Part shown: in pieces, positions 12,249-16,100 of the stretch
Position numbering within the stretch: the first letter of the stretch is position 1
How the letters are laid out: each line of letters opens with the position of its first letter
Assembly: GCA_019752815.1 (NCBI GenBank)
Contig: JAIELQ010000007.1
Coordinates: 1 to 40,921, forward strand
Length of the DNA stretch: 40,921 nucleotides
Direction: 5' to 3'
Source: Patescibacteria group bacterium
GTDB taxonomy: Bacteria; Patescibacteriota; Minisyncoccia; Phycocordibacterales; UBA918
Notes under the pieces: generated by a model
Databases searched by the model: none
What the model was told of the DNA's origin: nothing
What the model saw: only the letters and a program-made list of their open reading frames with translations
Translations under genes and position numbers: made by a program

Positions 12249-14624
12249 TTAACCACCTTTTAATAAATCAATCGCTACCTCAATCGTGATATCTTCCGTC
12301 TTGATATCTTCTGGAATACTTATCCGCTTAAATCCTTTGCGGAGATATCTTCCTGATTTTGATTCAAATACATTCACCATTTTTTTAGTGAAGGGATTTA
12401 AACCCAGTTCCTTAAGCAGCTTCTCACCCTTCCGCGCGGTTTTTGGTTCTGCGTAGATTTCCATAGCACGGTCGTAGGTAATGGTGTACGGGTCGTCACC
12501 ATTTTTGAGCGAACGGAAATCTCCAGCGTGTGCGATGTAGGGACCGTACTGGCCAGTGTTGGCCATAATTGGTTCACCGGTCTTGGGATGAAGTCCAAGT
12601 TCTCGGGGAAGGAGTAGAAATTTAACTGCATCAGCTAGGGTAACGTCCTCGGGTTTCATACCGGCAGGCAGACTGGCACGTTTAGGACTTGGCATTTTTT
12701 TACCTTTTACCTTTTCTGGATTAGGACCTAATTGTACGTATGGTCCAAATTTTCCGTTCATCACAAAAATATCCTCGCCGGTGTCGGGGTGTTTGCCAAC
12801 CGGAGCATCTGGTTTAAGTTCATTGCCGTCAATCATGCGTGCTCCATTACAGTCAGGGAAGCGGTCACATGACAAAAACGTACCAGCTTTACCGAGCTTA
12901 ATGACCATCGTGCTGCCGCATTCGGGGCAGGGGAATTGTTTGGGGCCAGCACCGAGATTTGTCAGTTTGGGAATATCTTCTTTACTCGCAACATCTTTTT
13001 GGAACGGGCCATAAAAATCAGTGAGGGTTTTTTTGTAGGTTCGGGTACCTTCGGCAATGTCATCGAGTTGCTCTTCCATCGAGGAGGTAAAAGTGTCAGA
13101 TATATAGTCAGCAAAGTATTGTTCCAAAAATGTCGAAACCACGTCCCCAGTATCTGTTGGTATCAGGGTGCGACCTTCCTTTATCACATACCCGCGGTCA
13201 GTGATGGTTTTCATAATCGAGGCGTAGGTTGATGGTCGACCAATGCCTCTTTTTTCGAGTTCTTTGATTAAGCCCGCTTCACTATAGCGACTCGGTGGTT
13301 GGGTTTGTTTAGCTTCGATATCAATTGATTGTAAATCGAGGGTGTCGCCGACGACTAATTTGGGCACCTCGGTATCTTCACCTCGAGCGCGCGTATCAAC
13401 CGCAAGCCACCCATCAAATACGACTCGGGCGCCGTTAACTGCAAAATCTGGAATAGATTCGGTACTGCCGGTAATATTGGCGAGAACTTTGGTACGTAAC
13501 ATAGCGGCGTCAGCCATTTGTGAGGCTACGGTCCGACGCCAAATCAGTTCGTAGAGGGCTTTTTGGTCGGCAGTGGCACCAACACCTAACTTCTTAAAAT
13601 TAGTCGGACGGACGGCTTCGTGGGCTTCTTGGGCTGATTTACTTTTTGTTTTAAACCGGCGCGGCAGGAGATACTTTTTGCCATAATCTTTTTCAATCAG
13701 CGTATGCATATTGGCGAGCGCCACTTCGCTTAAGTTGGTACTGTCAGTACGCATATACGTGATGTGTCCAGCTTCATATAATTTCTGGGCTGCACCCATA
13801 GTTCGTGAAGGCGAGAAGCCAAGACGCGTTGAAGCCACCTGTTGTAAGGTAGAGGTGGTAAATGGTGGTTTGGGTGTGCGTTTGGCCTCTGTTTCTTTGA
13901 TACTTGTCACCGTCCAGTCGTTGGCTTGTCCAACTTTTTTAATTCGATCGGCCTCATCTTCGGTGCTCGGTTCGACGGTACATAAAAATGGAATGTTGAG
14001 TTTTTTGGCACGGGTGTGGGCGGTCAGCACAAAATAATCATCAGGAATGAAGGCTCTGATTTCTCGTTCCCGTTCCATGACGATTCGGAGCGCCGGTGAT
14101 TGTACTCGGCCAGCTGATAGTCCGTACCGAACTTTTTTCCAGATTAATCCCGAGAGGTCATACCCTACAAGACGATCAAGGATGCGTCGGGCCTCCTGAG
14201 CTTCTTTTAAATCAATATCAATATCGCGAGGTTTTAAAATGGCTGCTTTAACAGCGTCCTCAGTGATCTCATTAAAGACTACTCGTTTGAGGTTCTTGTT
14301 TTCTTTTTTGATAAGTTCGGCTACGTGCCAGGCAATAGCCTCACCTTCACGGTCGGGGTCGGATGCCAGCAACACCACATCGGCTTTTTTAGCGGCTGCT
14401 TGTAGTCCGGCAATAACCTTTTCTTTTCCGGGAGAAATGATATAGCGGGGCACAAACCCAGCTTCGATATCAACGGCATCTTTGTTGCTTTTTGGGATAT
14501 CACGCACGTGCCCAATTGATGACATTACTTTAAAACCAGTACCAAGGTACTTTTCGATAGTTTTTGCTTTGGCAGGGGATTCAACAATTACCAGCGTGTT
14601 CTGGGCTTTGTGGGTTGTGCTCAT
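12249..14624 (-). CDS. topA: DNA topoisomerase I
   Basis: TLVIVESPAKAKTIEKYLG; LASDPDREGEAIAWH; AGHITYMRTDSTNLS; C-terminal zinc motif CPECGSTMVIKLGKAGTFLSCDRFPDC. Confidence 0.97.
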   Translation of the reverse strand: MSTTHKAQNTLVIVESPAKAKTIEKYLGTGFKVMSSIGHVRDIPKSNKDAVDIEAGFVPRYIISPGKEKVIAGLQAAAKKADVVLLASDPDREGEAIAWHVAELIKKENKNLKRVVFNEITEDAVKAAILKPRDIDIDLKEAQEARRILDRLVGYDLSGLIWKKVRYGLSAGRVQSPALRIVMEREREIRAFIPDDYFVLTAHTRAKKLNIPFLCTVEPSTEDEADRIKKVGQANDWTVTSIKETEAKRTPKPPFTTSTLQQVASTRLGFSPSRTMGAAQKLYEAGHITYMRTDSTNLSEVALANMHTLIEKDYGKKYLLPRRFKTKSKSAQEAHEAVRPTNFKKLGVGATADQKALYELIWRRTVASQMADAAMLRTKVLANITGSTESIPDFAVNGARVVFDGWLAVDTRARGEDTEVPKLVVGDTLDLQSIDIEAKQTQPPSRYSEAGLIKELEKRGIGRPSTYASIMKTITDRGYVIKEGRTLIPTDTGDVVSTFLEQYFADYISDTFTSSMEEQLDDIAEGTRTYKKTLTDFYGPFQKDVASKEDIPKLTNLGAGPKQFPCPECGSTMVIKLGKAGTFLSCDRFPDCNGARMIDGNELKPDAPVGKHPDTGEDIFVMNGKFGPYVQLGPNPEKVKGKKMPSPKRASLPAGMKPEDVTLADAVKFLLLPRELGLHPKTGEPIMANTGQYGPYIAHAGDFRSLKNGDDPYTITYDRAMEIYAEPKTARKGEKLLKELGLNPFTKKMVNVFESKSGRYLRKGFKRISIPEDIKTEDITIEVAIDLLKGG

Positions 14625-14763: not shown

Positions 14764-14803
14764 GTACTCTAAACCTACCTGTTAACAGGTAGGTTTAGAG
14801 TAC
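14764..14803. repeat. Perfect 40-bp palindrome overlapping the 3' end of the TrpR-like gene
   Basis: gtactctaaacctacctgtt|aacaggtaggtttagagtac. Confidence 0.95.
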
Positions 14804-15190
14804 GCGATTTAATAGTCTGGCACGGGCTCGGCTACTTACTTGAAATAGTATTAAGTCTTCAATGAGTGCTATAAATCCGTTCACTTCTTTTTCTTTTAGG
14901 CAACTGAGTAATTTATCGTAGTTACCATTATCGTAATTCTCTAATAGTCTTTGGGATGTTGATAGGCTGATGGAAAGAGTATGACTGACTCTATATGGTG
15001 AGAAATTACGATGCAACATAATAATTGCTGCAAATCGTTTTACTATCATTATCGTTTCAGTTTCAGTCAGTAATTCGTTAATAAGGTATCTCGCGTTTCT
15101 ATTCTTGAGGTTCCCAATAAATTGCGCAAGCTCGTTATGATAGAGCGCGTACTCTTTACTATCTGTTTTTACTTTTGAGATATTGGTCAT
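14795..15190 (-). CDS. TrpR/YerC/YecD-family HTH protein
   Basis: LLTETETIMIVKRFAAIIMLHRNFSPYRVSHTLSISLSTSQRLLENYDNGNY resembles the Trp repressor superfamily HTH. Confidence 0.75.
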   Translation of the reverse strand: MTNISKVKTDSKEYALYHNELAQFIGNLKNRNARYLINELLTETETIMIVKRFAAIIMLHRNFSPYRVSHTLSISLSTSQRLLENYDNGNYDKLLSCLKEKEVNGFIALIEDLILFQVSSRARARLLNRVL

Positions 15191-15196
15191 AAATGT

Positions 15197-15221
15197 ACCT
15201 GTTAACAGGTAGGTTTAGAGT
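15197..15221. promoter_or_regulatory. Putative operator: acctgttaacaggt palindrome within a 25-bp repeat of the 14764-14803 element
   Basis: acctgttaacaggtaggtttagagt, also present in the 3' palindrome; 6 nt upstream of the TrpR-like start codon. Confidence 0.65.
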
Positions 15222-15233
15222 TATAAAGTTTGA

Positions 15234-16100
15234 TCAAAATCGACCATGATACGTATTGCCTTCAATTGTAATGTATCCCATCATTTCCATTTGCATCAAT
15301 ACGACCACAGCTTCACTAATGGGTAATTCGAGTTTACGAATTAGGGTGTCACGGTCAGTTGGTTCATGTAGTAGGTCTAGCACTCTGGCTTCAAGTGGCG
15401 ACAGTAGGGGTAGTGTCTTGGGAGCCGATTCCATATGAATATCAATACCAAGTGCCATGAGAATATCTTCAGCTATTGTGACAGGGGTGGCGCCTAGTTT
15501 GAGAAATTGGTGCGTGCCAGCACTGTTACTTGCAAAAATACTGCCGGGCACCACGAGGAGTTCACGATTGTAGTCTACGCACAGGCGGGCGGTGATCAAG
15601 GTGCCTGACTTGGCACCAGCTTCAATCAGTAAAGTCGCCGGACACATCCCGGCCATAATGCGATTACGCTGCGGAAATGTCCATTTAGCGGCTTTGGTCA
15701 AAGGCGATAGTTCAGATAGTAGTCCGCCGCCTGCATCAACTATCGTGCGGGCTAAATTGCGATTACTCGCCGGATACAGTACTGATTCATCGAGTCCGCT
15801 CCCTGGGACAGCGAGCGTGTATAAACCGTGTCGCAAGGCTGCATCGTGCGCGAGGGCGTCCACACCGAGGGCGAGACCAGAGACAATGCCAATCGGGTAA
15901 TCGGCGAGACCGCTTATGAGATGTTCGATAACCTGTTTTCCGTAGGTAGTGTATTTGCGAGAGCCTACTACTGCAAGGAGTGTGAGATCAGGTGGAGGGA
16001 GATTTCCGACGGCCCACAGTTCAGAAGGAGGTTGGGGGATTTCCGCTAGCAGAGACGGGAACTCGGCGGTTCCTAGCTTACGAGGAGAGAATGAACTCAT
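15234..16100 (-). CDS. dprA: DNA-processing protein DprA
   Basis: LLAVVGSRKYTTYGKQVIEHLI; GIVSGLALGVDALAHDAAL; TFPQRNRIMAGM; C-terminal winged-helix-like region. Confidence 0.95.
   Translation of the reverse strand: MSSFSPRKLGTAEFPSLLAEIPQPPSELWAVGNLPPPDLTLLAVVGSRKYTTYGKQVIEHLISGLADYPIGIVSGLALGVDALAHDAALRHGLYTLAVPGSGLDESVLYPASNRNLARTIVDAGGGLLSELSPLTKAAKWTFPQRNRIMAGMCPATLLIEAGAKSGTLITARLCVDYNRELLVVPGSIFASNSAGTHQFLKLGATPVTIAEDILMALGIDIHMESAPKTLPLLSPLEARVLDLLHEPTDRDTLIRKLELPISEAVVVLMQMEMMGYITIEGNTYHGRF

Follow-up and report, generated by a model that had tools for sequence, protein, structure and literature searches.

TrpR-fold proteins of Patescibacteria encoded between matched palindromes: a probable partnership of protein and dispersed repeat

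A gene in the 40,921-nucleotide stretch of Patescibacteria DNA analysed here (the window) codes for one of a family of TrpR-fold proteins, ~130–150 amino acids long, that is found in Patescibacteria, and palindromes flank both ends of nearly all homologues, with one core sequence per locus and cores that vary between loci. Gene and palindromes probably form a partnership of protein and repeat, in which the protein would bind its own core, repress its own gene, be inherited and evolve together with the palindromes, and have a cognate repeat population. This looks like a protein and repeated-DNA partnership that has previously gone unremarked: a search of the open-access literature, with most subscription journals outside its scope, found no description of a TrpR-fold protein partnered with a dispersed palindrome. 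The gene, its palindromes and its neighbours are positioned in the window as follows.

12249–14624, minus strand: topA, the downstream neighbour (ORF).
14764–14803: downstream palindrome, 40 bp and perfect (20 + 20 bp), spanning the stop codon; core at 14777–14790.
14795–15190, minus strand: gene for the TrpR-superfamily protein (ORF, 131 amino acids, ATG start), assigned from family and fold data and from homologues.
15190–15221: upstream site, core ACCTGTTAACAGGT at 15197–15210; its outer side repeats the downstream arm.
15197–15221: 25-bp repeat ACCTGTTAACAGGTAGGTTTAGAGT, the same as 14777–14801.
15234–16100, minus strand: dprA, the upstream neighbour (ORF), named from its sequence and a preliminary description of this DNA rather than by a family search.

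The coordinates confirm the arrangement reported in the preliminary description: on inspection of the sequence the stop codon of the 131-residue gene lies inside the 40-bp palindrome, and the second copy of ACCTGTTAACAGGTAGGTTTAGAGT lies 6 nt ahead of the ATG at 15190. The downstream site is a perfect palindrome over its whole 40 bp; the upstream site is one over the 16 bp of TACCTGTTAACAGGTA only and is imperfect farther out. As RNA, the downstream palindrome is predicted to fold with a free energy of -31 kcal/mol (z = -8.9); a T-run is absent, and a terminator scan found no intrinsic terminator at this position. Matches in an Rfam search all scored far under the gathering score, and the phage records searched held no match. 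Pattern searches, from which all genome-wide counts are taken, located ACCTGTTAACAGGT in two exact copies in the window and in just two others in the 1.04-Mb genome, on contigs C11 and C14, each of them a perfect 34-bp palindrome. One of these solo copies (TTCTAAATACACCTGTTAACAGGTGTATTTAGAA) is flanked by a sortase-like gene and a second gene oriented divergently, and the other (CCCTAAACCTACCTGTTAACAGGTAGGTTTAGGG) sits past an rRNA operon, on its 5S side, the names of these nearby genes having been read from sequence. Relative to the window copy, the C11 copy has three changes per arm, each of them compensated on the opposite arm.

Searched alone, the window protein found no family in Pfam (a Saposin match fell under the cut-off) and no NCBIfam match at E<=1, so the YerC/YecD model (TIGR02531) was not matched either. 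Its relatives are more informative: the Pfam family Trp_repressor matches 50 of the 57 members at E<=0.1 (best 8e-13), TIGR02531 is scored weakly by 28 of the 57 relatives at E<=0.1, and a profile of the 57-homologue alignment matches the PDB entries 3kor (8e-8), 3g1c (2e-7) and also 3frw. The AlphaFold2 model is all-helical with the TrpR fold (mean pLDDT 90), and its top Foldseek matches are TrpR or TrpR-like structures, with probabilities up to 1.00 and E-values that are all at least 0.001. The TrpR/YerC-like label first given to this protein is thus supported at the level of the family and its predicted fold, while the window protein by itself scores no family. E45, K51, R52 and T78 are the only invariant residues among the 57 homologues. 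Pfam, PDB profile and Foldseek searches found no nuclease domain; Y1_Tnp, with its HUH motif and catalytic tyrosine, is absent from the 25 most-matched Pfam families among the 57 members, for which the Pfam and NCBIfam searches returned no transposase domain and just weak HTH-type matches to transposase models.

Homologues occur in 42 of 146 relatives, at up to five per genome, in a sample of draft genomes with mostly one per species; the named records among the homologues include several Candidatus Kaiserbacteria, and from these the source, an uncultured bacterium of ultra-small type, is labelled a Kaiserbacteria relative. Cores found at different loci include ACCTGTTAACAGGT, CACCTATTAATAGGTG, CTTACGATATATCGTAAG, CTTTCGGTTAACCGAAAG and many others. 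We scored the pairing of the two ends automatically, taking palindromes of 18 bp in which no more than one pair is mismatched and requiring at least 16/18 identity between the ends. Matched palindromes were found on this basis at both ends of 44 of the 60 homologues in the order and, elsewhere in the phylum, of 10 of the 49 family members. Locating cores by symmetry favours symmetric ones, a bias addressed by two controls: none of 20 classical TrpR/YerC genes of the same phylum and none of 488 other ORFs of the same loci pass. The preliminary description had turned on whether relatives keep the gene without its palindromes, and the 44 of 60 that retain both ends leave its reading standing on that point. 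The centre of the upstream palindrome lies mostly 9–50 nt ahead of the start codon. Because of this position autorepression would fit, and autoregulation is plausible. The looping of DNA between two operators, proposed at the same time, is unsupported, the two sites of a gene being 415–795 bp apart with no convincing helical phasing.

Core and protein vary together, in that core identity rises from 0.46 to 0.76 with rising protein identity and the Mantel correlation is r = 0.39, with 0 of 5000 permutations as high, a value from which shared ancestry is not fully removed. Outside the shared part the arms differ between the two ends, yet each end is self-complementary: the first three positions past the shared part are symmetric in 83–85% of cases downstream and 63–77% upstream, against 25% expected. 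Since the arms differ between ends yet stay mirrored, their sequences point to hairpin pairing as such, or to some process by which one arm is copied onto its partner. Perfect stems of 24–31 bp without these cores are also common in the genus (L259 297, L272 3834, L277 2400, L279 3105), and because such hairpins are frequent, part of the arm symmetry may be a general mutational property of the lineage. Several genomes also hold another palindrome family, which has the core TATCATTAATGATA and site-specific, symmetric arms (L175 2455, L180 1740, L183 2472, L188 2676).

Copies of the cores are also dispersed away from the genes. Across the genus, ACCTGTTAACAGGT is found in just 5 of 38 genomes, four of which carry the gene, and a control pattern has 0 matches in the 38. 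Palindromes of the form AACCTT-N-AAGGTT give 106 matches compared with 36 for a control pattern, at up to 17 per genome; with gene-side sites included, their mean per genome is 4.2 with the gene versus 0.8 without it, and the corresponding means for the control pattern are 0.8 and 1.1. Among the matches listed, from which gene-side sites are excluded and which do not extend to G012 and G010, 10 of 34 solo cores match the core of a gene in their own genome where 3.06 would be expected (none of 20000 shuffles reached 10; shared ancestry is not fully removed from this test). Copy numbers are low (2–17). Most solo sites fall between genes (15% are coding, with a background of 80%), and the intergenic ones are enriched between convergent genes (31% versus 16%) and depleted between divergent genes (5% versus 17%). 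This placement is unlike that of a regulon of operators, although one of the two own-genome solo copies is of the divergent kind. In genome G020 there are three ACCTGTTAACAGGT solo palindromes (L096, L100 and L103), and a gene with that core was not detected; the L100 copy has, ~60 bp away, a palindrome carrying this genome's own core, ATACGGTTAACCGTAT.

The genes themselves occupy conserved loci: dprA-topA, tatD-metG, recJ-rnhA, ksgA-uvrD and a few others, with tatD-metG and other locus names taken from reading the neighbouring proteins rather than from a family search. The order dprA, gene, topA is found in five genomes of the genus (the window and four others). Loci cluster on a tree of 58 proteins, with 16 changes of locus where shuffling gives 33.4 on average; the clade of the window protein (support 100/100) has members at dprA-topA, obg-secA, proS-mreB and dnaE-thrS. 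Because the genes sit at conserved loci that cluster on the tree, descent is mostly vertical, with some relocation; no recent transposition of the gene was caught among the members compared. Orthologous positions hold differing cores. A shortened TrpR-like ORF of 64 amino acids adjoins a solo palindrome at L173 2271–2492 (G021:C21) and is probably the remnant of a lost gene.

Some palindromes lie in frame within genes, namely murD (two sites, G025), tsaD (G020), and prmC and pepA (G017), and these sites bear on how palindromes are gained. The prmC of G017 is ~5 amino acids longer than its orthologues. At the first murD site the length equals that of 15 orthologues, so that the palindrome has replaced sequence in place; as no change of length is seen, this site speaks against simple insertion. 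Around the tsaD palindrome the region is highly variable across the genomes compared. Between clpP and tig a palindrome is present in G024 and absent from G012 (flanks ~81% identical); its extra right arm is the mirror image of the left flank, and no target-site duplication was seen in this comparison. At a second site both of these genomes have a palindrome, with the centre CAATCGATTG in common and different symmetric arms. Because of the gain in prmC, the replacement in murD and the mirrored arm in clpP-tig, palindromes could possibly arise by insertion and possibly also by in-place mirroring. The same stretch of prmC holds different palindromes across genomes (L235, L247, L248, L242, L263, L264), that of the window's own genome being ACTATCATATACGATAGT, and MurD has, close to its C terminus, one variable stretch in which each of four genomes carries a different palindrome (L265, L266, L267, L270).

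In the partnership that we favour, each TrpR-fold member would most likely bind, as a dimer, a palindrome with a member-specific core of 12–18 bp. The start-side copy overlaps the region of transcription and translation start, where binding would most likely repress the gene, and the stop-codon copy together with the copies elsewhere in the chromosome would make up a small population of repeats cognate to the protein. The protein and its palindrome would be inherited jointly and co-evolve, as RAYT does with REP and REPIN. The formation and spread of palindromes might be driven by the protein, or by host replication at protein-bound hairpins. To our knowledge, TrpR-fold proteins have no DNA-cutting activity, and because of this the copies would have to be made either by host replication, while the protein would select or stabilise them, or by some partner. 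A stronger version, which we put forward tentatively, is that the palindrome population arises, and stays symmetric, by way of the non-catalytic TrpR-fold protein, which might for example steer replication template switching at bound half-sites; if true, this would be a new way for short bacterial sequences to multiply without a transposase.

Several other explanations were weighed. A TrpR-type repressor of the ordinary kind, controlling itself and a small regulon, with the dispersed palindromes as operators of other genes, would account for the fold, for the distance of most upstream centres from the start codon and for the one own-genome solo copy between divergent genes. We nevertheless think it unlikely, given that solos are depleted in divergent gaps, enriched between convergent genes and present within housekeeping genes, that nearly all genes carry a stop-codon site too, and that cores turn over between orthologous loci. 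The intergenic and convergent-gene enrichment, the sites within genes and the few copies per genome would suit a structural DNA-binding protein, acting as a roadblock at 3' ends or as a chromosome organiser like Noc, MatP or ParB. Such a role is quite improbable for a protein that is patchily present (42 of 146 relatives) and whose recognised core changes fast. The by-product reading, that palindromes come from template switching in replication or from selection for terminators and that the protein has no role, draws on the frequency of long perfect hairpins unrelated to the cores and on symmetric arms particular to each site; it leaves the shared cores at both gene ends, the matching solos and the covariation with the protein unexplained, and we give it scarcely any credence.

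Movement of DNA in a more conventional sense was also considered. A mobile unit with terminal repeats had been suggested in the preliminary description, and of this suggestion the matched ends and dispersed copies stand; the conserved loci, the missing nuclease domain and the dispersal of palindromes rather than of the gene tell against the rest. A small conventional transposon, with gene and terminal repeats moving as a unit, might explain the matched ends and the four different gene loci within the window's clade, but is very unlikely in view of the absent nuclease domain, how strongly the loci cluster on the tree (16 changes versus 33 shuffled), the lack of any target-site duplication seen and the excess of solo palindromes over genes. 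Nor is there much to commend the idea that Y1 proteins (IS200/RAYT-type) encoded in these genomes move the palindromes in trans, which we regard as barely credible. Of the 38 genomes of the genus, 25 do have Y1_Tnp proteins, but G021 has eight palindrome matches and zero Y1, G011 has seven Y1 matches and two palindromes, the correlation between the two is weak (rho = 0.28, p = 0.08), and in the own genome the Y1 gene is accompanied by palindromes that have a different sequence.

RAYT-REP is the well-known bacterial case of a gene and a dispersed palindrome travelling together. In the parts of the published accounts drawn on here, RAYT genes are described as lying in every case between two inverted REPs, the preserved palindromic features of which are read as selection for complementary mutations (PMC2817692), and as single-copy and vertically inherited (PMC8049555). 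The likeness to RAYT/REP and REPIN, judged against those parts, lies in a gene with palindromes on either side that also occur scattered through the genome, intergenic copies included, in the covariation of palindrome and protein and in mostly vertical inheritance (PMC2817692, PMC8049555). The differences are that RAYT is an HUH-tyrosine nuclease, a motif that the TrpR-fold protein lacks, that copy numbers here are far lower, and that the palindromes here are perfect, with neither a loop nor a GTAG-type head. By this analogy the TrpR-fold system would work like RAYT-REP and is not a member of it, because the defining HUH-tyrosine nuclease is missing. If the partnership is real, it would be an independent, repressor-fold case in minimal genomes, where repeats are costly, and would show that such partnerships have more than one origin. 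The only Y1_Tnp (RAYT-type) match in the window's own genome (C1:193563) has palindromes at L401 1276–1302 and 1938–1968, of the form AATCTTAGGGGTT-N-AACCCCTAAGATT, and this gene with its palindrome pair is an apparent genuine RAYT-REP unit in Patescibacteria.

MITEs and insertion sequences share with this system short inverted-repeat DNA and a related gene-bearing unit; here, in contrast, each end is itself a full palindrome, a transposase is absent and no target-site duplication was seen. With TrpR, YerC and HisR the protein shares its fold and HTH region (PDB relatives 3kor, 3g1c, 3frw and 1tro), and the trp operator likewise has a GTTAAC centre. However, it has longer N and C termini than these regulators, no metabolic operon lies nearby, and its gene has a palindrome at both ends, as seen for 0 of 20 classical members. 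HisR, a related TrpR/YerC-type regulator, controls histidine genes in Gram-positive bacteria, according to the portion of the work cited (PMC9413887). The present family offers many natural pairs of protein and core from which a DNA-recognition code of the TrpR fold might be read. In-frame palindromes inside genes have their known precedent in Rickettsia palindromic elements (RPEs), and the two systems are alike, as far as the cited part of the review goes, in placing palindromic sequence in frame in housekeeping genes (PMC10969869). RPEs are ~150 bp long compared with ~24–48 bp here, and one of the sites here replaced sequence with its length unchanged. The cited part of the review describes no partner protein (PMC10969869). 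For RPE-type palindromes within genes, the TrpR-fold family offers a candidate partner protein.
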